From: Nitrospirota bacterium
GTDB taxonomy: Bacteria > Nitrospirota > Thermodesulfovibrionia > Thermodesulfovibrionales > SM23-35
Length of the DNA stretch: 56,484 bases
Reading direction: 5' to 3'
Assembly: GCA_013388455.1 (NCBI GenBank)
Contig: JACAFF010000014.1
Span: 1-56,484 of the forward strand
Position numbers and translations under genes: made by a program. The notes under the pieces were generated by a model. The model had not been told where the DNA came from. It did not search any database and worked only from the letters and a program-made list of their open reading frames with translations. Shown piece by piece: positions 7,410-38,458 of the stretch. Position 1 is the stretch's first letter; the number at the start of each line of letters is the position of its first letter.

Positions 7410-8669
7410 ATGAGTGAAAAAACCCAGTGGGATTGGGATACGAAAGAAAAACTTATCGCAGATATAAACGAATGGAAAAAGAAATTTCCTGCAATACGTG
7501 AACTTGTACCAAGTGATGATGGAGAGAAAATAGCTACTATAATTAAAACCGAAGATAGAAGATTCACTACTTGTGTAAATGGAGAGACGTGGGAAGAAAC
7601 ATTTGAAAGGGTTTATTCACTGAAATTTAATCCTGATAATCAATTAATTTCCCTTGTTTTTAGAGATTATGAATGGGCTGTTGCAGTTGATCACGAAATG
7701 TGGGAAGAAAAATTTGATTTTCTATGGAATCTTACTCTAAGCCCTGATGGTAAGAGTATTGCTGTCAATATACGAACAGGTGAGATGACAAGTGGTGTGT
7801 GCTTAAATGGTCAAACGTGGGAAAATAATTTTCCTGAGGCAAGGGACCTCATTATGAGTCCGGATGGGAAAAGAACAGCGTCACATGTTCAGGTTAGGCC
7901 GCGTCCTGAACTTGACATCCTGGGTTTCCTTAATAAGAACTGGACGGCTGCAGTAGACGGAGTTGCGTGGGATAACACTTTCTTAATTCTCTGGGGAGGT
8001 GTTTTTAGTGATGACAGTAATCATGTAGCAGCAACTGTAATGACTGATATGTCACAATATACAATTGCTGTGGATGGGATACCATGGGATAAGGTTTTTG
8101 GTGCAGCTTGGGAGCCAATCTTTAAACCTAAAAGCTCTGATGTCGTTGCCCCTGTTCAGACTCCACAAGGCTGGACACTAGCCATGAATGGTAAGCCAAT
8201 ATGGGGTAATTTTTCACAGGTGTGGAAACAAAAATATAGCCCTGATGGACGTAAACTAGCTGCTGTTGTCGCAGTTGATGTAGGAAAATGGACAGTAGCA
8301 GTGGATGGTACACCATGGAGCACTGTATTTAATCAAATGGTATTGTCTCCTGTTTTCAGTCTGAGTGGGGAGAAGATTGCAGTTGTAGTAAAAAATAATA
8401 ATAAATGGACTATAGCTATAAATGGTTCGGCGTGGGCTGAAACTTTCGATAACATTTGGGATCCTGTTTTCAGTCCTGCTGGTGATGCTGTAGCAGCAAA
8501 GGCTGAAAAAGATGGTCTTTATTTTGTTGTTGTTAACGGAAAAGTCGGGAAGAAAGGATATGAGTCACTATGGCCTCCTGTTTTCAGTCCTGACGGAACA
8601 AAGCTCTTAGTGCGTGCTGTTGATAATGGTAAATATTACCGCAGGATTGTACCTGTAGGTGAAATTTAA
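7410..8669 (+). CDS. tmcD: TmcD-like tryptophan-rich beta-propeller protein
   Basis: Protein of 419 residues with no signal peptide or membrane helix. It is built of about nine repeats containing a W/AVDG-x-W motif (for example WTAAVDGVAWDNTF, YTIAVDGIPWDKVF, WTVAVDGTPWSTVF) alternating with F/SPDG strands. This matches TmcD, the Trp-rich WD40-like cytoplasmic subunit of the Desulfovibrio Tmc redox complex, whose exact role is unknown. It is the first gene of an operon encoding a complete Hmc-type complex; the cytochrome b subunit starts 24 bases after its stop. Having tmcD with hmc-type partners is a mixed arrangement. Confidence 0.8.
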   Translation: MSEKTQWDWDTKEKLIADINEWKKKFPAIRELVPSDDGEKIATIIKTEDRRFTTCVNGETWEETFERVYSLKFNPDNQLISLVFRDYEWAVAVDHEMWEEKFDFLWNLTLSPDGKSIAVNIRTGEMTSGVCLNGQTWENNFPEARDLIMSPDGKRTASHVQVRPRPELDILGFLNKNWTAAVDGVAWDNTFLILWGGVFSDDSNHVAATVMTDMSQYTIAVDGIPWDKVFGAAWEPIFKPKSSDVVAPVQTPQGWTLAMNGKPIWGNFSQVWKQKYSPDGRKLAAVVAVDVGKWTVAVDGTPWSTVFNQMVLSPVFSLSGEKIAVVVKNNNKWTIAINGSAWAETFDNIWDPVFSPAGDAVAAKAEKDGLYFVVVNGKVGKKGYESLWPPVFSPDGTKLLVRAVDNGKYYRRIVPVGEI

Positions 8670-8693: not shown

Positions 8694-9365
8694 ATGGAAT
8701 TTTTAACAAGTACAGCACTATATAATTTTCTTAGAGGGCCTCTTGTATGGGTTACTTTTTTTGTTTTTATTGTAGGTAGTATCTATAAACTTTATACTTT
8801 GATTAATCTGGCAAAAAAAGAAAAAGTAATTTTTCCGTTCATAAGCTTAAAAGCTACGCTCAAATCACTCCTTCATTGGGTTATTCCTTTTGCCTCAAGA
8901 AACTGGAGATTGAGACCCGTAATAACAACTTTTACTTTTCTTTTTCATATATGTTTGGTTTTTACGCCTATATTTCTTCTTTCCCACAATATCCTCTGGT
9001 ATGAATCATGGGGAATAACATGGTGGACTTTAGCTGAAAGCACAGCAGATATTATGACTATAGTAGTTATTTCTGCTTGTATTTTTTTCTTTTTAAGAAG
9101 GATTATTGCTTCTGAAGTAAGATTTGTTACATTTACTTCAGATTATGTAATACTTGCAATTTCTTTTATGCCGTTCTTAACTGGTTTTCTTGCATATCAC
9201 CAATGGTTACTTCCTCATAAAGCCATGGTGAATCTTCATATATTTTTTGGTGAGATAATGTTAATGGCAATACCATTCACCAGATTAGGGCATATGTTCT
9301 ATTTCTTCTTAACCAGGTCATGGATGGGTTCTAACTTTTCACTCTGGGGAACAAGAGACTGGTAG
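8694..9365 (+). CDS. hmcE: Hmc/Tmc complex cytochrome b subunit
   Basis: Inner-membrane NarI-like cytochrome b of 223 residues, the HmcE length. About five transmembrane helices carry several candidate haem-ligand histidines (in LLHWVIP, LFHICL, AYHQW, NLHIFF and RLGHMF). It accepts or delivers electrons between the menaquinone pool and the cytoplasmic Fe-S subunit encoded next. DsrM and TmcC are relatives; the small size and the downstream hmcF/hmcA/hmcB/hmcC neighbours favour HmcE. A GAGGG ribosome site precedes the ATG, and the hmcF start lies 28 bases after the stop behind AGGAGGG. Confidence 0.82.
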   Translation: MEFLTSTALYNFLRGPLVWVTFFVFIVGSIYKLYTLINLAKKEKVIFPFISLKATLKSLLHWVIPFASRNWRLRPVITTFTFLFHICLVFTPIFLLSHNILWYESWGITWWTLAESTADIMTIVVISACIFFFLRRIIASEVRFVTFTSDYVILAISFMPFLTGFLAYHQWLLPHKAMVNLHIFFGEIMLMAIPFTRLGHMFYFFLTRSWMGSNFSLWGTRDW

Positions 9366-9392: not shown

Positions 9393-10787
9393 ATGGCAAC
9401 AGTATCAAAAGAAAAAGAAGTACAAAAAGAAAAATATGTCAGCAAATATTTTAAAGAATATGTTAGGGATATAATTCCAGATATCGGTCTTGATGAAACA
9501 GTAAAAAGACTTACTCCAGAAAAAATAGAAAAGACCATTAAATCAGTTATAGGAAAAAGCTCTTCAAGAATAAAGGCAGTAATGGAGACATGTATTCATT
9601 GTGGATTATGTGCAGAGGCTTGTCAATGGTATCTTTCTTACGATAAAGACCCGACATATGCACCTGTTGCAAAAATGCGCATGACAATATGGGAGATGAT
9701 AAAAAGAGATGGTAAAGTTGATGCAGAATTCATAAAACAATGTGCAAGGATAGTATTCACCGAGTGCAATATATGTCATCGCTGTAGTATGTATTGTCCG
9801 TATGGTTTGGATATAACATTTATTATAGGTATGGTGCGTCGTATTTGTTTCCTTCTGGGTGTTATGCCTCAACGCCAATTTGATCAGGCAGAAGCGCATA
9901 TAGCAACACAAAATCAGGTCTGGATGTCTCAGAATGACTGGATTGATGCTGTTCAATGGATTGAAAGTGAATCAGGTGCGGATTTTAAAGATCTGCGTAT
10001 TCCTATGGATGTGGAGGGAGCAGACATTATGTTTTTACCACTGGGTGCAGAACCAAAGACAGGCACATATCATCTGGATCGAACAGCGAAAATTATGCTT
10101 GTTGCAGGTGTTAAATGGACATTGCCAGAAAAAGATACATGGGACAGCAGTAACATGTCAATGTTTGTCCGTGATTTTGTGACTATGCAACGGATTGTCC
10201 GGGGGTTATATGAGAACGCAGCAAGACTAAGAGTAAAAACGTTGATGTTAACGGAGTGAGGGCATCCACGTTTTGCCACAAGTTTTGTGGCACCGCCGAT
10301 GCTGGGATACAAAGAACTTCCTTTTGAAGTAAAACAAACAGGTGAAGTTTATTATGACCTTTTAAAGAGTGGAAAGATAAAGATAGATAAATCGAAAAAG
10401 ATTAAAGAGCCTGTTACTCTTCAGGATCCATGTAATATCATAAGAAGGGCAGGAGCAGCAGAGAAATTCAGATATATCGTAAATGAAACATGTGAGGACT
10501 TTAGAGAAATGACTCCAAACAAAGAGCATAATTTCTGCTGTAACGCGGGTGGTGGATTAGCTGCGCTGTCAAACTGGGCTGCCCATAAAGCAAAAGGAAA
10601 CAGGGTTAAGGCTGAACAGATTAAGAAAACAGGTGCAAAAATTGTTATTACCCCATGCCATAATTGTAGTACCGGTATAAAAGATGTTATAAAGATCTGG
10701 AACCTCGGTCTCAAGAATATGTTTTTTGATGAAATAATAGTAAATACAATGGTAATTCCTGAGGAATTTAAACTTAAAGCAGGATAA
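9393..10787 (+). CDS. hmcF: Hmc/Tmc complex CCG-domain Fe-S subunit, putative selenoprotein (in-frame UGA at codon 289)
   Basis: HdrD-like cytoplasmic subunit read as one 464-residue protein through UGA at 10257-10259. Two ferredoxin motifs, CIHCGLCAEAC (about residue 67) and CNICHRC (about 125), precede the CCG region, which has NFCCNAGGG (about 379) and PCHNC (about 421). The UGA falls where HmcF, TmcB and DsrK have the cysteine of GEC-GH: here TE-UGA-GHP. The frame stays open and conserved for 175 codons afterwards, and a SECIS-like hairpin follows at 10260-10303. HmcF is normally about 460 residues, so both halves are needed. A nonsense mutation or sequencing error is the alternative. A GTG at 10287 could be miscalled as a separate gene start. 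Confidence 0.85.
10260..10303 (+). promoter_or_regulatory. SECIS-like hairpin downstream of the in-frame UGA
   Basis: Immediately after the UGA, a two-part stem forms. The lower stem is GCATC (10262-10266) with GATGC (10298-10302), and the upper is a perfect 7-bp stem GCCACAA (10275-10281) with TTGTGGC (10285-10291). The apical loop GUU starts with G, and 22 bases separate UGA from the loop. This fits the known geometry of bacterial SECIS elements (short G-starting loop, about 16-37 bases from UGA), which bind SelB for selenocysteine insertion. Confidence 0.75.
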
Positions 10788-10808: not shown

Positions 10809-12479
10809 ATGAAGAAAAAGATATTATTCTTGGTAATTACGACAGGTCTTCTCCTCTTCGTTATTATTGGATTAAATGGTGTTTATTCTACCGAAGGTCC
10901 TATGCTGCCTAAAAAAGCAGTTAAACCAGTGAAAGAGATCAAACCTGAAAATAAGATTGGTATAGCCCATACCGAGATTTTCGGAGAATTGGAACGTCCT
11001 CAGGTAATATTTGATCATCAGAAACATGTCGAAGCACTTAAAAAAGAGAATCAGGATTGTGACGCCTGTCACCCAGTGAACGAATGGAAAGAACTTATAT
11101 TTGATTTTCCTAAGAAAGTCAAAGATAAAGACGAAAAATCAATAATGAATGCCTATCATGATGAGTGTATTGAATGTCATAAGAAAAAATATAAAGAAGA
11201 TAAAAAGACAGGCCCAGTTACCTGTGGAGATTGCCATAAAGAAGAATATAAATTAGTAGCCGTCAAATATCCTGTCATGGAATTCGATTTTTCTTATCAT
11301 GATCAACATGTGAAAAAACTTAAAGAAAAAATAGGTAAAGATGATTGTAGCCTCTGTCATCATACTTATGACATAGATGAGGAAGATGAAACACTTGCAT
11401 TAGTTTATGAAGAGGGAACAGAGGAGTCATGTTTTTATTGTCACGACCTAAATACAAAGAGAGGTCCCAAATTAAAAGCAATAACCAGTGTTTCTGCAAA
11501 GAAGGGGCTTGATATACGTCGTGCATCTCATCTTCAGTGTCTGAATTGCCATCTGGAATATGAAAAAGAATTGAAAATGAAAAAAGTTAAAAGGGAAGAT
11601 GAGAAAGCTGGTCCGCTCGAATGTGCCAAATGTCATACTGGTAAGTACAAAACAATAGCTGAACTTGAAAAAGTTCCCAGACCTGATAGGGGTCAAAATA
11701 ATATAGCATTTATTAATATAGAAAACGCAAAACTAAAAGGTGTAGCATTTGATCATAAATATCATCAGAATAATCATAAGAGCTGTCGTGGATGTCATCA
11801 CGAGACCTTAAATGCATGCAAACAGTGTCATACACTGACAGGCAGTCCTGATGGCAAATGGATAAATATCGCAAATGCATATCATGACGTGTTATCAGAA
11901 AAAAGCTGTATGGGATGCCATAGCATAAAGAAAGCTGAGAAGGATTGCGCTGGATGTCACACTCTCTTACCTATTATGGATATTCAGACAAAAGGTCCTA
12001 AGAAAGAGATATGTAATACATGCCATGCAGGCAAAAAAGAACTCTTTGATGTTAAACCTTTGTCTATTACAGGGCTTGATACAGAAAAAGTCAAAAAAGA
12101 GGTTACCATCAAAGTCCTGGAGAGGGAATATGAGCCTTCAAAATTCCCACATGTCAAGATTATTGAAAAGCTGGTGAAAATTTCAAATGACAGTAAATTG
12201 GGAAGTTATTTCCATAGAGATTTGCAGAGAATATGTGAGGGATGCCATCACCAGAGTCGAGCCGAGGCTGAGGTTGAAAAAAATAGCCCCCCTTATTGTA
12301 GAAACTGTCATAGTGTCAAATTTGACAGACAAAACAGAAATAGACCTAAACTGGTTGCTGCTTATCATAATCAATGTTTAGGTTGTCATGAGTACATGCA
12401 ACTCGAAAAAGGCAGGAAATGCAAAGAGTGTCACGAGGAAAAAAAGATTCGACAAAAATATCCCTTAGAGATACAATGA
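10809..12479 (+). CDS. hmcA: High-molecular-weight cytochrome c, 16 haem motifs
   Basis: Periplasmic cytochrome of 556 residues with an N-terminal hydrophobic signal (MKKKILFLVITTGLLLFVII). I count exactly 16 CxxCH motifs, from CDACH (about residue 80) to CKECH near the end, many with an additional distal histidine (CHH or H-xx-H) as in cytochrome c3 domains. Sixteen haems and about 550 residues are the hallmark of HmcA, which exchanges electrons with periplasmic c3 cytochromes or hydrogenases and with the HmcB/HmcC membrane module. In Desulfovibrio hmcA is the first gene; here it follows hmcF. Ribosome site GAAGGGAAGG precedes the ATG. Confidence 0.9.
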   Translation: MKKKILFLVITTGLLLFVIIGLNGVYSTEGPMLPKKAVKPVKEIKPENKIGIAHTEIFGELERPQVIFDHQKHVEALKKENQDCDACHPVNEWKELIFDFPKKVKDKDEKSIMNAYHDECIECHKKKYKEDKKTGPVTCGDCHKEEYKLVAVKYPVMEFDFSYHDQHVKKLKEKIGKDDCSLCHHTYDIDEEDETLALVYEEGTEESCFYCHDLNTKRGPKLKAITSVSAKKGLDIRRASHLQCLNCHLEYEKELKMKKVKREDEKAGPLECAKCHTGKYKTIAELEKVPRPDRGQNNIAFINIENAKLKGVAFDHKYHQNNHKSCRGCHHETLNACKQCHTLTGSPDGKWINIANAYHDVLSEKSCMGCHSIKKAEKDCAGCHTLLPIMDIQTKGPKKEICNTCHAGKKELFDVKPLSITGLDTEKVKKEVTIKVLEREYEPSKFPHVKIIEKLVKISNDSKLGSYFHRDLQRICEGCHHQSRAEAEVEKNSPPYCRNCHSVKFDRQNRNRPKLVAAYHNQCLGCHEYMQLEKGRKCKECHEEKKIRQKYPLEIQ

Positions 12480-12637: not shown

Positions 12638-13636
12638 ATGGGAATTAATAGAAGGGACTTCTTTAAAAAGAGCGTCATAATCGCGGGCTCAGCGTTAATC
12701 GGTACGAGTTCAAAAGCTTATGCTCAGAATGTCGCTAATGAAAAGAACTGGAAACTTTGGGAGAAAAGAAAAGGCATTATTTCTGAAGATCGTTATGGTG
12801 TTCTTGTTGATACAACACGTTGTATTGGATGTAGAAGATGTGAATGGGCATGCAATGAATGGAATAAGAATCCGAATAGGCCTATACAAGAATTTGAAGC
12901 ATCAGTATCTCAGACAGATTCTGTCTTTAATCATATAAGAAGGATGCATGCGCAGAACTTTACAGTAGTGAACCGCTACTATAGCCCAAAAGATGGTAAA
13001 CCCATATATGTCAAGAGACAGTGTATGCATTGTGAAGAGCCAGGCTGTTTATCAGCATGTTTTGTTGATGCTTTCAGAAAAACCTCCGAGGGTTCGGTAC
13101 TCTATAATCCAGGTGTTTGTATAGGATGTCGTTATTGTATGATAGCCTGCCCCTTCGATGTGCCAGCATATGAGTATAATGAACCACTTAATCCTCAAGT
13201 TACGAAATGTACCATGTGCTACGACAGGATTACAACAGAAGGTGTAGTCCCTGCATGTGTAGAGATATGCCCAGCAGAAGTAATGACTTTTGGTAAAAGA
13301 AGCGAATTAATAAAGCTTGCGCATGAGAGAATAAGAAACAATCCTGGTAAATATGTTGAACATGTTTACGGAGAACGTGAAGTGGGTGGAACTTGTTGGT
13401 TATATCTTTCATCTGTTCCTTTCAACCAAATCGGTTTTAAGACAGATATAGGAGAAACACCGATCCCGAAAACAAGCAAGGGGTATCTTTTTGCGGTAAA
13501 GATGTTTGAGATTGTTGGTGCCTGGCCACTCGTTTTCGGTGCATACTATGCGATATCAAAAGCTCGTAAGAAACATACCTCGAGCCATGACACATCTTCA
13601 GAGAAGAAAGGAGAAAGCCATGGCGCAAAACACTAA
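12638..13636 (+). CDS. hmcB: Hmc complex periplasmic ferredoxin-like subunit
   Basis: Protein of 332 residues exported by the Tat route (twin-arginine NRRDFFKK at residues 4-11, then a hydrophobic stretch and AYAQ). Four [4Fe-4S] cysteine sets are visible: CIGCRRCEWAC (about 62), CMHCEEPGCLSAC (about 129), CIGCRYCMIACPF (about 161) and CTMCYD followed by CVEICP (about 190-210). A C-terminal helix (about 283-305) anchors it to the membrane, as in HmcB. It passes electrons between HmcA and HmcC. It starts at the second ATG (12638) after CCGGAGG; its end overlaps hmcC by 17 bases. Confidence 0.88.
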   Translation: MGINRRDFFKKSVIIAGSALIGTSSKAYAQNVANEKNWKLWEKRKGIISEDRYGVLVDTTRCIGCRRCEWACNEWNKNPNRPIQEFEASVSQTDSVFNHIRRMHAQNFTVVNRYYSPKDGKPIYVKRQCMHCEEPGCLSACFVDAFRKTSEGSVLYNPGVCIGCRYCMIACPFDVPAYEYNEPLNPQVTKCTMCYDRITTEGVVPACVEICPAEVMTFGKRSELIKLAHERIRNNPGKYVEHVYGEREVGGTCWLYLSSVPFNQIGFKTDIGETPIPKTSKGYLFAVKMFEIVGAWPLVFGAYYAISKARKKHTSSHDTSSEKKGESHGAKH

Positions 13637-14834
13637 TTCCTGGTTTAGAGAAAAAATACTTCTCGGGATGACACCGAGAGATTATATTATCAGTAATTTT
13701 AATTTTGGTAATCTTGTTGCAGGTGCTTTTATTGGCCTCGGAGTTGGTGTTATGATTTATCGACTAATTTTTGGGCTCGGGCCTTCAACAAATCTTTCAG
13801 ATAACTATCCGTGGGGATTATGGATTGGTTTTGATATACTTGTCGGAATCGCTTTAGCAGCACCCGGGCTTACCCTCGGGACAGCAGTTCATTTGTTCGG
13901 GATGAAAGAATATCATCATTTTGTAAGACCTGCTATCCTCTCCAGCCTTCTGGGATACATATTTGCTGTTTTTGCGCTTATGTTTGATCTGGGTCGCTAT
14001 TATCGTATTCCTTACCTTCTTGGTTGGTCATGGGGTTTTGCGTCAATTCTGTTTTTAATCGGCTGGCATTTCTTCCTTTATATAAATATCTGTCTAATTG
14101 AATGGGCACCAGCGCTATTTGAATGGTTAAATCTAAGAAAAGTTCGCGAATTTTTTACTAAGCTGGCAATCTGGGCAACTATCTTCGGTGTAATAATTGC
14201 TGGTGGCCATCAATCGGCACTTGGCGGTTTATACCTTGTTGCCCCGGGCAAGCTTCATCCCCTTTGGTATTCAATGCTACTGCCAGTTTTTTTCCTTTTA
14301 TCAGCTATTTTTGCTGGAATATCCATGGTGATTGTTGAAAGCACAATTACACATAAGGTTTTTAAAAGACAACTTCAGCATTTTGACCAGGCTAAATTTG
14401 ATAGACAAACAATTGGTCTCGGAAAAGCAACAGCTTCAGCTTTATTTATTTATCTGATCTTAAAAATCTTTGATCTTGCTCACTACAATAACTGGGGGTA
14501 TATAAATACTCCATACGGTTACTGGTATTTAGTAGAAATGCTTGGATTTGTTCTTTTGCCAGCTTTTCTATTCACACACGCTGCAAGAAAGGGGAAGGCA
14601 AAACTTGTTAGATTTACTGGTTTTTTAACAGCACTCGGAGTTATTTTAAACAGGTTGAATGTATCTATTATTGCATATAACTGGCAGATTCCTGCTTCAC
14701 AAAAATACTATCCATTATGGAGTGAGATTGCTCTTTCACTTGGTGTGGTGGCAATGCTGGTTGTTGCTTATCGTTTTATTGTAAACCGTATGGCTATAAT
14801 GTACGATCATCCAGATTACGAATCAGCACATTAA
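13620..14834 (+). CDS. hmcC: Hmc complex NrfD-like integral membrane subunit
   Basis: Polytopic protein of 404 residues with about ten transmembrane helices, of the NrfD/PsrC/HmcC quinone-interacting family. I place the start at ATG 13620 (MAQNTNSWFREKILLGM) because AAAGGAG precedes it; the open frame extends upstream to 13506 but overlaps hmcB without a ribosome site. Hydrophobic segments include NLVAGAFIGLGVGVMIY near the start and VVAMLVVAYRFIV near the end. It is the last gene of the operon; after its stop comes a short gap and a convergent minus-strand gene. Confidence 0.87.
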   Translation: MAQNTNSWFREKILLGMTPRDYIISNFNFGNLVAGAFIGLGVGVMIYRLIFGLGPSTNLSDNYPWGLWIGFDILVGIALAAPGLTLGTAVHLFGMKEYHHFVRPAILSSLLGYIFAVFALMFDLGRYYRIPYLLGWSWGFASILFLIGWHFFLYINICLIEWAPALFEWLNLRKVREFFTKLAIWATIFGVIIAGGHQSALGGLYLVAPGKLHPLWYSMLLPVFFLLSAIFAGISMVIVESTITHKVFKRQLQHFDQAKFDRQTIGLGKATASALFIYLILKIFDLAHYNNWGYINTPYGYWYLVEMLGFVLLPAFLFTHAARKGKAKLVRFTGFLTALGVILNRLNVSIIAYNWQIPASQKYYPLWSEIALSLGVVAMLVVAYRFIVNRMAIMYDHPDYESAH

Positions 14835-25510: not shown

Positions 25511-26794
25511 ATGGGCAATAGAAAAGAAGAAAATGTTAAAGAATTAAAAAAGGGACAGAGGATAGCCTTTATTGCAACCTTTGTAACACTTGTTTTAGCA
25601 GCTATGAAGGGCGTCATAGGTTATTTATTTGATTCCAGGATTCTGATAGCCGATGCCTTTCATAGCGGAGCTGATCTCCTGGCTATCTTTGCATCATGGT
25701 TTGGTCTTTGGATGGCCGCCAGGAAAAAATCTGCAAGATTCCCCTATGGGTTATATAAGGCTGAAACCCTGGTTAGTTTTATAATAGGTGTATTAATAGC
25801 ATGGGCAGGAGTGGAGTTATTAAAAGAGGGATATCATAAGCTTTCTTATACCGCCTATCCTCAGGCATTTCCATTTTTGCCGGTTATGGCAAGTATCATT
25901 TCTATTATTGCCGCCTATTTTATAGCAAAAAAGGAAAAGGCTGTCGGCAGATTAATTAATTCCCAATCCCTGATTGCGAATGCAACCGAATCCTTTTTAG
26001 ATATCTTTACCTCCATAGTTGTTTTGACAGGCATATTGTTTGCCTATGCAAGGATTCCCTTTATAGAGGGCACTATTATTATGTTGATTTCATTGCTTAT
26101 TCTCAAATTGGGAATAAAAAACATATGGACATCTCTTCTGGTCTTAATGGACGCAAATCTTGACCCGGAATTGCAATCCGAGATTGAAGAAAACATAAAC
26201 AAAATCTATGGGGTTAAAGGAGTCAGTGAGGTAAGGATACGCCAATCAGGTCCGCTTAAGATGGTTGAATGCAAGATTGCAACCAGTCCATCACTCTCAT
26301 TATATAAGGCACATGAACTTGCAAATATCGCAGAAGATTTTATAATTAAAAACTATAAACACATTGAGTCAGTTTTCATCCATGTTGAGCCATCAAGGGA
26401 TAAGGCTATCTCAGCTATTATCCCTGTTAAGGATATCAACGGTTTGGACTCGAAAGTTCATGGCCATTTTGGCCGGGCCCCTTATTTCATCATATTAAGG
26501 CTTGGCAATGATAACAATGAAATAGAGGATTTTTACTATAATGAATTCATTAATGAAAAAAAACATGCAGGGATTAAGGTCATAAAGGCTGTTATTAAAT
26601 ATAAAATTGATGTGTTATTTACATCGCGGGTTGGAGAAATTTCCTTCTATATGCTTAAAAATAACTTTGTTGATATATATAAGACTGAAGAAGGCTGTTC
26701 GGTAAGGGAGATTATAGAAAAGTATCGCAAAAATCAAATTGAACGGATTACGTTACCAACACATTCAGTAGAAGAAGCCCATGCAGAAAGTTAA
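25511..26794 (+). CDS. Cation diffusion facilitator fused to a NifX-type domain
   Basis: Protein of 427 residues. Residues 1 to about 215 are a six-helix CDF metal exporter, with the first metal site ADAFHSGAD (about 46-54). Residues about 215-300 are the usual CDF cytoplasmic domain (INKIYGVKGVSEVRIRQSGP). Residues about 300-395 are a NifX/MTH1175-type domain (ISAIIPVKD, VHGHFGRAPYFIIL) not found in ordinary CDFs. The second site in helix 5 reads NATESFLD, with Glu in place of the usual His, so metal preference may differ from zinc. It overlaps the next gene by 14 bases. Confidence 0.85.
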   Translation: MGNRKEENVKELKKGQRIAFIATFVTLVLAAMKGVIGYLFDSRILIADAFHSGADLLAIFASWFGLWMAARKKSARFPYGLYKAETLVSFIIGVLIAWAGVELLKEGYHKLSYTAYPQAFPFLPVMASIISIIAAYFIAKKEKAVGRLINSQSLIANATESFLDIFTSIVVLTGILFAYARIPFIEGTIIMLISLLILKLGIKNIWTSLLVLMDANLDPELQSEIEENINKIYGVKGVSEVRIRQSGPLKMVECKIATSPSLSLYKAHELANIAEDFIIKNYKHIESVFIHVEPSRDKAISAIIPVKDINGLDSKVHGHFGRAPYFIILRLGNDNNEIEDFYYNEFINEKKHAGIKVIKAVIKYKIDVLFTSRVGEISFYMLKNNFVDIYKTEEGCSVREIIEKYRKNQIERITLPTHSVEEAHAES

Positions 26795-34064: not shown

Positions 34065-36464
34065 TTACCAGGTCTGAAAAAGTTTTTTCAGATTGCTCAT
34101 TTCTTCTAAAATAGAATTAGCCTGTTTAAATTGGGAATCCTTATATGTTTTAATCTTAAGTCCAGTAGCTGATTCGGTAATTTTGATCGCTCCGTGAATG
34201 TCTGTCCTGAATATTTCTGCTCCATCTAATGCATCTATGGTATCCTGGTGTGGATGCCCAAATGTATTTCCACGTCCGCAACTGATTACAGCTATTTGCG
34301 GAGATACTGAACGAAAGAAGGGCTGATAGGCAGATGTTTTTCCGCCATGATGTGGAACTTTCAATACATTACTTTTCAACCAATCACCAATATGCAGTAT
34401 ACTCTCTTCAGCCTCTTCTTCGATATCTCCGGTAAAGAGAAATGAGTGATTAATGCTCTGAATTTTTAGAACCAGCGAGTCGTTATTAGCCTCGTCATCT
34501 TCTTCACTAGATAATGTGTAGAATTCAGGATATGGATGAAGAATATAAATAGAATAATTATCTCCATCAATCCTATCACCCCTGTTGAATGCACGAAAGG
34601 TTAACTTATCTGGTATCTCAGAAAAAATCATACGTCCGTTATGCCAGATTTCTCTAATCTCGAATCTATCCAGTAAATAATATAGACCCCCAGTGTGGTC
34701 AGGATGGCTATGTGAAAGTATGAGGGCATCTATAGTTCTTTTACCTCTATAATCAAGGAATGTGGCGGTTTCCCTTCCAGTTTTACCCGTGTCTGTTACA
34801 ATTGTTTTGCCATCAGGAAGCTCAATGACTGCAGAATCCCCTTGCCCGACATCAAGAAATGTGATTTCAATATATTTTTTTTCAAAGATTGTGAATGAGA
34901 AGTAAATAAGCACAGGAATAAAAGGGATTAGAATGGTATACCTCTGTCTTGACGAAATATTACCCTTCCCCCCACCCCCTCCCTCACTGGGAAGGGGAGA
35001 GAGGGAGAGGGAAGAAGTATTTTTTGGTAAAAGAAAATAAAAAATGAACCCAACATAGAAGAGTAGTACTAATATTGGAGGAAAATTTGGAATTTTTATA
35101 GCTGCAAATGGAATTTCAGAGAAAAGTCTTACAAGCGAAATACTAAATTTAGTTAAAAATTCGATAAGTGGAGTAAAGATGAAATAACCAGAAACAAGAT
35201 ATAAAAATGATGATAAAACAGAAAGTGGTATGATGATAAAACCAATAAGAGGTGCTACTAATAGATTCGAGATAGGGGATATGAAAGAAAAATAGTGAAA
35301 ATAATATGCTACTAATGGAGCGATTCCAATTGACGCTGAAATTGGAATAAGTAGAATATTTTTGATATATTTCATTATCCTATGGTCTTTTTCTGTTTTT
35401 TTATCTTTAATGAACATGCCTATAAAAAATACAGCTATAAAAGAAAGCTGAAAAGAAAGACTGAATATATGTTCTGGATTCCATAACGCTATTATTAATG
35501 CAGCAAACAGAAGTGAATTTAACCAGAAACCTTTTCTGCCGATGATCATCCCGAATAGAAAAAGGCTTATCATTATGAATGATCTGACCGCAGGAATGCT
35601 GGAACCGGAAATGCCGAGATAGGTTAACATAAAAGGGAAGCTTAATAACGCAGCAGCTTGTGCAGGAGTCAAAAAAATCGTTATTTTCTGTAAGATACTG
35701 TATGGAAGAATTTTAATAATCAGACGAAATATACCAAATAGAAGCACAGAGAATAAACCGAAATGCGTGCCAGAGATGCTAAGTATATGTGCCAGTCCTG
35801 TTCTATTAAAAGCATTTTTCAAATCTTCATTCATAAGTGCCCTGTGCCCAGTTGTAATTGATGAAATCAGAGCTGCAGAATCTTTTGTAAAATGCTTTTC
35901 TATATATACATTGATTCTATTCCGGCAATCTTGAATCTTTTTATTCAATGAAATAATCTTTTCCCCTTCATTATATATATCGAGAACATTTGCATACCTA
36001 TGTTGGTTTAATTGCTCACCCGGGTTCAATCTTTCTCTATTTTTCAGAAACTTTATTCTGAGTTTGCATTTTAGTCCAGGTTCAAATGGTTCGTCAGAAA
36101 AAAGTGTAATTTCCTGATTATCGAGTTCCTGGAGATATTGCTGACTGTTACTATCTACTGCAGATGCTATCCTGAAGATTTGATTGTATGTATCGTTATT
36201 ATTTTTTATTGGATAAGATACAAAAATGCCGTTTACCGTAACTTCCCTTCCAAAATAATGCAGAAGTAGATCTGGTTCATATCTGATATAAGCGTATGAA
36301 ATTCCTGTAATGATTCCAGTGAGTATGATTAATACAGGAATAAATTTTCTTTTTAATAATATAATAAGAGAAATAAGCACTATGGTAAAAATGGAAGAAA
36401 ATGGAAAATAGGGAAAAACTTTAAAAATAACTACGCCTGTAAGAAATGCTATGAAAAAATGCAT
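34065..36464 (-). CDS. comEC: ComEC/Rec2 DNA-uptake channel protein
   Basis: Inner-membrane protein of 799 residues that passes single-stranded DNA into the cytoplasm during transformation. An N-terminal DUF4131 part is followed by the competence domain with many helices (HILSISGTHFGLFSVLLF at about 228) and a C-terminal MBL nuclease-like domain (DVGQGDSA and LSHSHPDHTGG at about 583). The segment at about residues 484-501 (LPSEGGGGGKG) is encoded by an inserted GC-rich repeat at 34962-35013 that keeps the frame. It overlaps glmM by one base and is the last gene of the cdaA operon. Confidence 0.9.
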   Translation of the reverse strand: MHFFIAFLTGVVIFKVFPYFPFSSIFTIVLISLIILLKRKFIPVLIILTGIITGISYAYIRYEPDLLLHYFGREVTVNGIFVSYPIKNNNDTYNQIFRIASAVDSNSQQYLQELDNQEITLFSDEPFEPGLKCKLRIKFLKNRERLNPGEQLNQHRYANVLDIYNEGEKIISLNKKIQDCRNRINVYIEKHFTKDSAALISSITTGHRALMNEDLKNAFNRTGLAHILSISGTHFGLFSVLLFGIFRLIIKILPYSILQKITIFLTPAQAAALLSFPFMLTYLGISGSSIPAVRSFIMISLFLFGMIIGRKGFWLNSLLFAALIIALWNPEHIFSLSFQLSFIAVFFIGMFIKDKKTEKDHRIMKYIKNILLIPISASIGIAPLVAYYFHYFSFISPISNLLVAPLIGFIIIPLSVLSSFLYLVSGYFIFTPLIEFLTKFSISLVRLFSEIPFAAIKIPNFPPILVLLFYVGFIFYFLLPKNTSSLSLSPLPSEGGGGGKGNISSRQRYTILIPFIPVLIYFSFTIFEKKYIEITFLDVGQGDSAVIELPDGKTIVTDTGKTGRETATFLDYRGKRTIDALILSHSHPDHTGGLYYLLDRFEIREIWHNGRMIFSEIPDKLTFRAFNRGDRIDGDNYSIYILHPYPEFYTLSSEEDDEANNDSLVLKIQSINHSFLFTGDIEEEAEESILHIGDWLKSNVLKVPHHGGKTSAYQPFFRSVSPQIAVISCGRGNTFGHPHQDTIDALDGAEIFRTDIHGAIKITESATGLKIKTYKDSQFKQANSILEEMSNLKKLFQTW
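34962..35013. repeat. GC-rich palindromic repeat inside comEC
   Basis: A strongly C-rich then G-rich segment (CCTTCCCCCCACCCCCTCCC, then TGGGAAGGGGAGAGAGGGAG) stands out from the AT-rich surroundings. It is of the type of the common REP-like elements with CCCTCACTGGGAAGGGGAGAGG cores. It sits in frame in a linker after the transmembrane competence domain. Confidence 0.6.
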
Positions 36465-37810
36465 CAGGCCATCTTTTCTTTAATCACCCTGACTATATCT
36501 TTCCCGAGCTTTGTAATAAGCCTTCTGTCAATTCCTTCAAGCATAATTCTTAATTTTGGCTCAGTCCCTGAAGGTCTGACGAGTATCCTTCCCGAGTCTA
36601 TAAGTCGTTTTTCTGCATAATGTATTACATCCATAATTTCAGGTATATCTCTGAAATCAATATTTTGTCTAATGGTAACATTCATTAGAACCTGTGGGTA
36701 AAGCTTTATATTAGCAGCGAGTTTCGAAAGAGGTGAATCTTTCTTTTTCATCAAATGCATAACCTGGACCGCTGTGAGAGGGCCATCTCCAGTTGTATTA
36801 TGATCAAGAAATACAATATGTCCTGATTGTTCGCCCCCGAGATTGAATCCACCTTCGAGCATTTTTTCAACAACGAACCTATCTCCAACTTTTGTCCTGA
36901 TTAGTTTTATCCCGCTACTTTTTAAAAATTTTTCAAGTCCAAGATTGCTCATCACTGTTGCTACAACAGTGTTTTTACTTAGTGTATTATTATTTTTCAT
37001 TTCTACTGCCCACATTCCCATTATCTTATCACCATCTACAATATTGCCTTTTTCGTCACAAAATAGAGCCCTGTCTCCATCTCCATCATGAGCTATACCT
37101 ATATCTGCCTTATGCTGTTTTACTGCTTTTTGCAAACCTTCAATATTAAGAGAACCGCAGCCTGCATTAATATTTTTTCCATCAGGCTTATTGTTGATAG
37201 AAATTACATCTGCTCCAAGCTCACATAAAAGCCATGGGGTAGTTTTATATGTAGCTCCATTTGCACAGTCAATTACTACCTTCATACCCTCAAAAGTAGT
37301 GCCCCTCGGTATAGTTGATTTGATATATTCTATGTAACGACCTGTTGCATCGTCCAGACGATAGGCTTTACCTATATCTGGTCCTTTTGCTCTAAGCTTT
37401 GAGAGTTCATCGTCATGTACGAGTTCTTCTATCTTTTTTTCAAGTGCATCAGGTAGCTTGAAACCTTTAGAAGAGAAAAATTTTATTCCATTATCTTCAA
37501 ACGGATTGTGAGATGCAGAGATAACAATTCCTGCATCAAGTCTTAATGTCCTTGTAAGGAATGCTATCCCTGGTGTAGGAAGTGGTCCAACAAGTGTAAC
37601 ATTCATTCCCATCGAACAGATACCTGAAGTAAGAGCACTCTCTATCATATAACCTGACAGCCGTGTATCCTTTCCTATTAGGATCATATTTCTGCCATGT
37701 TTTTCTCTAAGAAGGCTTGCTATAGCCATACCAATTCTCAAAACCGTTTCAGGTGTCATAGGAGATCTATTAACTGTGCCTCTTATCCCATCTGTTCCAA
37801 AAAGCTTCAT
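36464..37810 (-). CDS. glmM: Phosphoglucosamine mutase
   Basis: Enzyme of 448 residues converting glucosamine-6-phosphate to glucosamine-1-phosphate for UDP-GlcNAc synthesis. It has the N-terminal FGTDGIRGTVN, phospho-serine loop SASHNPFEDNGIKFF (about 98-112), metal loop DGDGDR (about 241-246), substrate loop GGEQSGHIVF (about 325) and C-terminal RPSGTEPKLRIM. Length and motifs are complete. It follows cdaR by three bases, the classic cdaA-cdaR-glmM order in which GlmM also modulates diadenylate cyclase in Firmicutes. Confidence 0.94.
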   Translation of the reverse strand: MKLFGTDGIRGTVNRSPMTPETVLRIGMAIASLLREKHGRNMILIGKDTRLSGYMIESALTSGICSMGMNVTLVGPLPTPGIAFLTRTLRLDAGIVISASHNPFEDNGIKFFSSKGFKLPDALEKKIEELVHDDELSKLRAKGPDIGKAYRLDDATGRYIEYIKSTIPRGTTFEGMKVVIDCANGATYKTTPWLLCELGADVISINNKPDGKNINAGCGSLNIEGLQKAVKQHKADIGIAHDGDGDRALFCDEKGNIVDGDKIMGMWAVEMKNNNTLSKNTVVATVMSNLGLEKFLKSSGIKLIRTKVGDRFVVEKMLEGGFNLGGEQSGHIVFLDHNTTGDGPLTAVQVMHLMKKKDSPLSKLAANIKLYPQVLMNVTIRQNIDFRDIPEIMDVIHYAEKRLIDSGRILVRPSGTEPKLRIMLEGIDRRLITKLGKDIVRVIKEKMA

Positions 37811-37813
37811 TGT

Positions 37814-38458
37814 TCATTTCTCCACATTCACTCTTATTTTGATAACATCGGGCTTAGCCCGGATATTCTTACCTTTTAAGTCAAGTTTCAAATCCTGAGA
37901 AAATGACTCAGTGATACCTGTTATATCCAGAGGCTCGGTCTTTAGTTTATTAATCTTTCTGACTTCAGATTTTGAACCTTCGACTACAACAGTAGGTGGC
38001 TCTATAGTTACAGACCTAACAGAATAATCTTTTTCCAGTTCACCTATTATAACAGGACTTACCTTGACAGTTTTTGATAAAGTCTCTTCTGTGGTTATTT
38101 TTAGACTTGATGGATTTATATTCGATACCGTAATACCATGCGGGGTTTTAATATCATCACGTGTTATGTAATAGACATTATCGCCTTTTTTTGTTTTACT
38201 AAGGTCGATTGAAATCCTGATATCCGAGGGCTTGAGGTTTCTGATAAATCTTTCCTGTCCTTTAACATTAAGACTGATCATTTTTACTGTATTATTAACC
38301 ATCTCGAGACCCGGAGGAATATTTTTAAACTCCACCGGGACATCAAGGTACATCTCGGATTGACCTCGTGAAGTTACGTAAAACCACAAAACGATAGATA
38401 AGAATATTGCAGCGATCTTTAATCCAAAATTTTTTGAAAAGATATTTTCCTTTTTCAT
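37814..38458 (-). CDS. cdaR: YbbR-domain regulator of diadenylate cyclase
   Basis: Protein of 214 residues with an N-terminal membrane anchor (LKIAAIFLSIVLWFYVTS, about residues 13-30) followed by two YbbR domains in the periplasm (YLDVPVEFKNIPPGLEM, and later VEGSKSEVRKINKLKT). CdaR proteins bind and tune CdaA. It overlaps cdaA by four bases (ATGA). Family members in Firmicutes have three or four YbbR repeats; two here is a short version typical of Gram-negatives. Confidence 0.87.
   Translation of the reverse strand: MKKENIFSKNFGLKIAAIFLSIVLWFYVTSRGQSEMYLDVPVEFKNIPPGLEMVNNTVKMISLNVKGQERFIRNLKPSDIRISIDLSKTKKGDNVYYITRDDIKTPHGITVSNINPSSLKITTEETLSKTVKVSPVIIGELEKDYSVRSVTIEPPTVVVEGSKSEVRKINKLKTEPLDITGITESFSQDLKLDLKGKNIRAKPDVIKIRVNVEK

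Follow-up and report, generated by a model that had tools for sequence, protein, structure and literature searches.

Does the in-frame UGA at positions 10257-10259 of this Nitrospirota contig end a gene, or does it encode selenocysteine (Sec) in a redox subunit, and what would such a residue do there? Within the window (the whole stretch of DNA analyzed, 56,484 nucleotides), positions 9393-10787 of the forward strand form a single frame of 464 residues plus a stop, with codon 289 as the sole in-frame TGA. The initial annotation had described one frame broken by this UGA alone, and its coordinates were right. The residues around U289 read LTE-U-GHP, 175 sense codons lie 3' of the TGA, and the CCG motifs said to be retained there are whole (C347, C382-C383, C422, and C425). 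Automatic annotation that stopped the gene at the UGA would drop the catalytic half of the subunit. The features of the locus are as follows.

7410..8669, forward strand: tmcD-like gene, first of the operon, 419 aa, beta-propeller-like (NF045725 TmcD, 490.6 bits, cut-off 440)
8694..9365, forward strand: tmcC-like membrane anchor, 223 aa (NF045723 TmcC, 268.2 bits, cut-off 240)
9393..10787, forward strand: TmcB-type Fe-S/CCG subunit, predicted selenoprotein, 464 residues, Sec 289 (NF045724 TmcB, 511 bits; homologues with TGA, TGC, or TGT at 289)
10257..10259, forward strand: UGA codon read as Sec, U289 of the E-U-G-H motif (in-frame TGA and homologue column)
10274..10292, forward strand: SECIS-like hairpin, 8-bp stem 10274-10281/10285-10292, triloop GUU 10282-10284 (fold, compensatory changes, and +6 codon)
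10809..12479, forward strand: hmcA-like periplasmic multihaem cytochrome c, 556 aa (NF045713 HmcA, 521 bits, cut-off 400)
12638..13636, forward strand: hmcB-like ferredoxin subunit, 332 aa (NF045715 HmcB, 370 bits, cut-off 420)
13620..14834, forward strand: hmcC-like NrfD-type membrane subunit (NF045714 HmcC, 455 bits, cut-off 550; PF03916 NrfD); its start was set at ATG 13620, the mechanical ORF beginning at TTG 13506

A Tmc/Hmc hybrid operon

The gene had been taken to encode an HmcF-type subunit of an Hmc complex, an assignment that gave way on both protein and operon. Against the NCBIfam models the protein scored 511 bits for TmcB (cut-off 735), 367 for HmcF (cut-off 750), and 180 for DsrK (NF045796, cut-off 400), all below cut-off, and the operon is a Tmc/Hmc hybrid in the order tmcD-tmcC-tmcB(U)-hmcA-hmcB-hmcC. 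The tmcC-like gene scored 189 bits against HmcE, under the cut-off. This order is unchanged in Sec and Cys relatives with enough contig, including Nitrospirota and Thermodesulfobacterium. The 9393-10787 product is almost certainly the TmcB-type subunit of such a hybrid.

Two relatives carry tandem modules, arranged as tmcD-tmcC-tmcB(U)-tmcD-tmcC-tmcB(C)-hmcA-hmcB-hmcC in G014 (L060:4049-13383) and, with a Sec module that lacks tmcC, as tmcD-tmcB(U)-tmcD-tmcC-tmcB(C)-hmcA-hmcB-hmcC in G002 (L051:4243-14619). From gene order, these look like selenium and sulfur isoforms with a common periplasmic and membrane part. Elsewhere in the window, positions 25511-26794 encode a cation-efflux (ZT-dimer) transporter with a dinitrogenase iron-molybdenum cofactor domain fused at its C terminus.

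Selenocysteine machinery of the genome

The host genome (2.1 Mb, 99% complete, a draft of 44 contigs) was checked for selA, selB, selC, and selD, as the initial annotation had proposed, and all four are present: a canonical tRNA-Sec(UCA) at 73.2 bits, SelB (364 bits) and SelA (622 bits) on the same contig, and SelD (379 bits), whose own active-site codon is an in-frame TGA within an AAGU motif. Sec machinery was found in Cys-only genomes too, and its presence therefore does not discriminate between the two forms.

Another reading, in which a selC*-type tRNA-Cys(UCA) and a second SelB insert cysteine at the UGA, a route suggested for certain anaerobes, draws on the occurrence of selC* genes in Nitrospirae (PMC7609411) and on relatives that carry GCA versions or, in G017, a UCA version. 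In this genome, however, the sole tRNA-Sec-like gene above the cut-off is the canonical UCA tRNA-Sec, the next matches being Leu, Ser, Gly, and Trp tRNAs, and both SelA and SelD, which are required for Sec synthesis, are present. Cysteine insertion through a selC* tRNA was rejected, no such tRNA having been found in this genome, and we consider it highly improbable here.

Several relatives have tRNA genes of related kinds. A second tRNA-Sec-like gene with a GCA (Cys) anticodon adjoins a second selB at L191:228-320, L193:2150-2240, L194:2109-2200, L200:2141-2232, and L201:2107-2196, and the second such gene of G017 (L202:286-377) has a UCA anticodon. selC* tRNA-Cys is a known type of such genes, and the second selB is named by the text of the same paper for two deltaproteobacterial orders only (PMC7609411). 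G002 has two tRNA-Sec-like genes (L195 and L199); SelB was not found in this 99% complete draft, which carries two Sec TmcB-type genes, at E<1e-60. A search for tRNA-Sec in the draft genomes G003 and G008 found none, though both carry UGA copies. In G006, a tRNA-Sec-like gene (L196:283-380, contig C36) lies about 20 bases past the end of a Cys TmcB-type copy with an apparent frameshift close to its 3' end, and another contig of that genome carries a Sec copy.

A SECIS-like hairpin downstream of the UGA

The two-part hairpin described directly after the UGA was confirmed in its triloop starting with G and its spacing of 22 nt from UGA to loop, but its upper stem has 8 bp and not 7. When the proposed folding of 10257-10303 was run, the 47 nt from the UGA folded at -19.3 kcal/mol against a mean of -11.3 for shuffled sequences (z -3.2; 2 of 200 shuffles equally good). 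Covariation was counted in 16 sequences, that is, the 19 Sec genes minus L031, L049, and L051, a branch whose different hairpin is shifted by one base. Standard pairs fill 97.3% of the pair cells of this main-type hairpin, changes on both sides (compensatory) occur at 3 of 7 counted stem pairs, and the covariation score was reached by 0 of 500 shuffles in a control that keeps relatedness; slid versions of the stem pair far worse. RNAalifold predicted no pairs across all 19 sequences, probably because of the one-base shift in the L031/L049/L051 branch. The 47-nt folds of the L139 and L145 Sec genes are no better than shuffled, yet both genes retain most of the stem pairs. A search of the window against Rfam gave no match, a result with little bearing on bacterial SECIS elements. 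The +6 codon is GCC (Ala) in 19 of 19 TGA genes, while the residue in Cys genes is mostly S, G, or T and its codon varies freely; at this codon the protein sequence has bent to the RNA hairpin.

Conservation and selection across the UGA

The homologue alignment that had been suggested for Sec/Cys pairs holds only UGC, UGU, and UGA at column 289: across 86 matches in named genomes, the codon is TGC in 50, TGT in 22, and TGA in 14. With Sec counted as Cys, E288, residue 289, G290, and H291 are invariant over 59 sequences. The conservation of the UGA column settles that the UGA is a real observation. Between the window and L059, its nearest named relative, 66 of the 83 codon changes 3' of the UGA are synonymous and 17 are non-synonymous, with changes mostly at third positions, and 5' of the UGA 116 of 164 are synonymous. 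The predominance of synonymous change after the UGA argues that this part is translated in frame; by these counts purifying selection acts on the codons 3' of the UGA as it does on those 5' of it.

A true stop would leave either a pseudogene or a split gene, with a 288-residue protein followed by a 166-residue CCG protein from GTG 10287. Such a downstream ORF with a GTG start does exist, but the codons between the UGA and that GTG are conserved as well, selection continues past the UGA, TAA and TAG are absent from the column, and the single UGA is kept in other genomes of the family. Termination at 289 is thus very improbable. An error of sequencing or assembly, conceivable in a draft of 44 contigs, has negligible probability, the same UGA and hairpin recurring in genomes that were assembled independently and in a cultured organism, Thermodesulfobacterium hydrogeniphilum DSM 14290. 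On conservation and selection together, assembly error, pseudogene, and split gene were rejected.

The possibility of a chance readthrough frame was addressed by a six-frame scan of the window, which found one other TGA joining two frames as long as these; third-order Markov copies of the window gave 0 such TGA-joined long frames in 100. This lone other candidate was rejected as two ordinary adjacent genes, YbbR and GlmM (36464-38458, reverse strand), which lie in the same frame 3 bases apart, so that the TGA stop of YbbR mimics an in-frame readthrough.

The proposal that Sec replaces the cysteine of the conserved GEC-GH motif is borne out by the machinery, the SECIS-like hairpin, the Sec/Cys pairs, and the purifying selection after the UGA. 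UGA 10257-10259 very probably encodes Sec at 289, and on this comparative evidence 9393-10787 is a real selenoprotein prediction, neither an error nor a pseudogene.

Distribution and evolution of the Sec form

A UGA at codon 289 of the homologue occurs in 14 of 20 genomes of the window's family, with two each in G007 and G002, and, of the 230 genomes of the class, 13 show the pattern of UGA plus hairpin, every one of them in that family. Outside it, two Thermodesulfobacterium species have a copy that is 68-70% identical and nested with the window's clade on the tree, which suggests transfer between phyla. The cultured T. hydrogeniphilum strain has two Sec copies, the second of another branch, in addition to a Cys copy. 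A quick tree of 124 sequences requires the Sec/Cys state to change 8 times, with 7 of these changes dictated by well-supported branches, and the TmcB type alone has Sec in three to four separate branches. Such repeated switching between Sec and Cys at 289 is in line with a catalytic residue.

One G002 gene (L055:8827-10131) has a second in-frame TGA (L055:10021-10023, contig C19) at the position of C422, a noncubane cluster ligand, in the motif P-U-HNC; the column holds TGC or TGT in the other 103 homologues. An 8-bp hairpin with a GAA loop lies 21 nt after this TGA (-9.9 kcal/mol; 15 of 200 shuffles equally good), and no comparable hairpin forms in the closest Cys homologue (-3.0). That this one draft genome encodes a second true Sec seems to us doubtful.

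Cluster ligands and proposed mechanism

The AF2 model of the subunit has a pLDDT of 90, and its nearest solved structure is EtfD (Z 25.3 over 385 residues), with HdrB among the next (5odc_B, Z 16.8; 8rwn_B, Z 17.9). In a profile search of PDB sequences, EtfD was the sole match, with no structure of DsrK, HmcF, or TmcB. All five noncubane Cys ligands of EtfD align with cysteines here (C637, C672, C673, C709, and C712 with C347, C382, C383, C422, and C425), and U289-G-H291 aligns with C581-P-H583. Of the latter EtfD residues, C581 coordinates a linear [3Fe-4S] cluster and H583 the noncubane one (PMC13083937). The linear-cluster ligands C503, C538, and C584 have no Cys counterpart in the aligned TmcB-type subunit, and a second cluster at the U289 position is probably absent here.

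The initial annotation had offered Sec as a possible cluster ligand, and this part of its proposal stood only halfway: the position does match the linear-cluster ligand Cys581 of EtfD, but the rest of that cluster's ligands are absent here. If Sec289 coordinated a second Fe-S cluster or the noncubane one, tuning its potential, this would fit the aligned EtfD residue, yet it would require unusual coordination when C503, C538, and C584 have no equivalent; we consider it rather unlikely. Since the other linear-cluster ligands are gone, U289 would more readily be a free selenol than a ligand, and from the alignment we lean toward such a selenol next to the noncubane cluster that is left.

A model is proposed in which the canonical SelB and tRNA-Sec, with the hairpin at 10274-10292, would decode the UGA as Sec, as indicated by comparison. 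By homology, electrons would pass from periplasmic cytochromes to HmcA, through the membrane subunits to the cytoplasmic subunit, whose two ferredoxin-type clusters would hand them on to a single noncubane [4Fe-4S] cluster in the C-terminal CCG domain. U289 would sit where HdrB and EtfD carry their second cluster, and its nucleophilic selenol, beside the noncubane cluster, may open a disulfide or trisulfide, most likely of DsrC. HdrB splits its disulfide with two noncubane clusters; here the selenol could serve as the second half-site. The Cys form would presumably carry out this reaction too, at a lower rate or without selenium. DsrA, DsrC, and DsrMKJOP, with a Cys-containing DsrK, are encoded in the genome, and Tmc has been proposed to deliver electrons to DsrC (PMC10553843, PMC4215793), which together make DsrC a likely candidate; our confidence that it is the substrate is evenly balanced. 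Taken as a whole, Sec decoding, a hybrid complex, and a U289 selenol that opens a DsrC disulfide or trisulfide are quite likely the best explanation of the locus. Only tentatively do we propose a di- or trisulfide reductase site with one noncubane [4Fe-4S] cluster and a Sec in place of the HdrB-type second cluster, bringing electrons into DsrC in a selenium-dependent manner, and with Sec also at a noncubane ligand in G002.

It is not settled which partner the Tmc and Hmc complexes have in the cytoplasm or what chemistry they carry out (PMC4215793). A switch between Sec and Cys at an invariant position of the CCG subunit would mark that residue as catalytic and makes both questions testable, for instance in the cultured T. 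hydrogeniphilum with its Sec and Cys copies; it would also link selenium supply to sulfur respiration in Nitrospirota.

Comparison with known systems

A selenoprotein family named 'Fe-S oxidoreductase (GlpC)' was described by Zhang et al. in 2006, with operons containing hdrA, frhD, frhG, and frhA (PMC1794560), and its motif is given as UGH in a 2026 review (PMC13188914). A Sec-containing HdrD4 has been reported from Desulfobacterium autotrophicum (PMC2702500). Desulfobacterota GlpC-like (COG0247) proteins are 25-30% identical to the window protein and have TGA at the same column (NTE-U-GH); several of their genes adjoin HdrA-like genes, and the tree places these proteins well away from the TmcB type. 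One such cluster, in a Desulfovibrionaceae genome (G230, L180:851-9634), combines genes for a 1151-aa HdrA-like double protein, an HdrB-like protein, and a Sec-containing HdrD/GlpC-like protein with a second HdrD/GlpC-like gene that has DCGG in place of the ECGH motif. The GlpC selenoproteins thus share with the window protein the superfamily, Sec at the homologous U-G-H column, and a downstream hairpin, but they are of a cytoplasmic type beside HdrA-like (and HdrB-like) genes, whereas the window operon is of the membrane-bound Tmc/Hmc type and lacks the glpC-hdrA-frhD-frhG-frhA arrangement.

The initial annotation knew of no described Sec-HmcF. This holds for the subfamily in the openly licensed literature searched, where no description of a Sec-HmcF or a Sec-TmcB was found, but Sec at the homologous U-G-H position has been known since 2006 (PMC1794560). 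The new element here is a Sec form of the membrane-bound Tmc/Hmc type; a TmcB-type member may possibly have been counted already among the GlpC selenoproteins, for which WP_174406253.1 is the listed example.

TmcB (NF045724) is the best-scoring family, with TmcC (268 bits) and TmcD (491 bits) neighbors above their cut-offs; the window protein differs in its score (511 versus 735 bits), in having Sec for Cys, and in being followed by HmcA, HmcB, and HmcC rather than by a small TmcA. HmcF (NF045711) is homologous and the operon's HmcA exceeds its cut-off, but the subunit scores 367 against a cut-off of 750 bits and again has Sec for Cys. DsrK of DsrMKJOP shares the CGH motif and the C-terminal CCG domain, but identity to DsrK-type homologues is about 27%, and the DsrK of this genome has Cys. 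EtfD and HdrB/HdrD share the fold of two CCG domains and all five C-terminal noncubane ligands; unlike them, the window subunit keeps in its N-terminal CCG domain only the Sec position of the cluster ligands, so that of the two full sets of cluster cysteines in HdrB/HdrD it has the C-terminal set, with Sec standing at the remaining position of the other.
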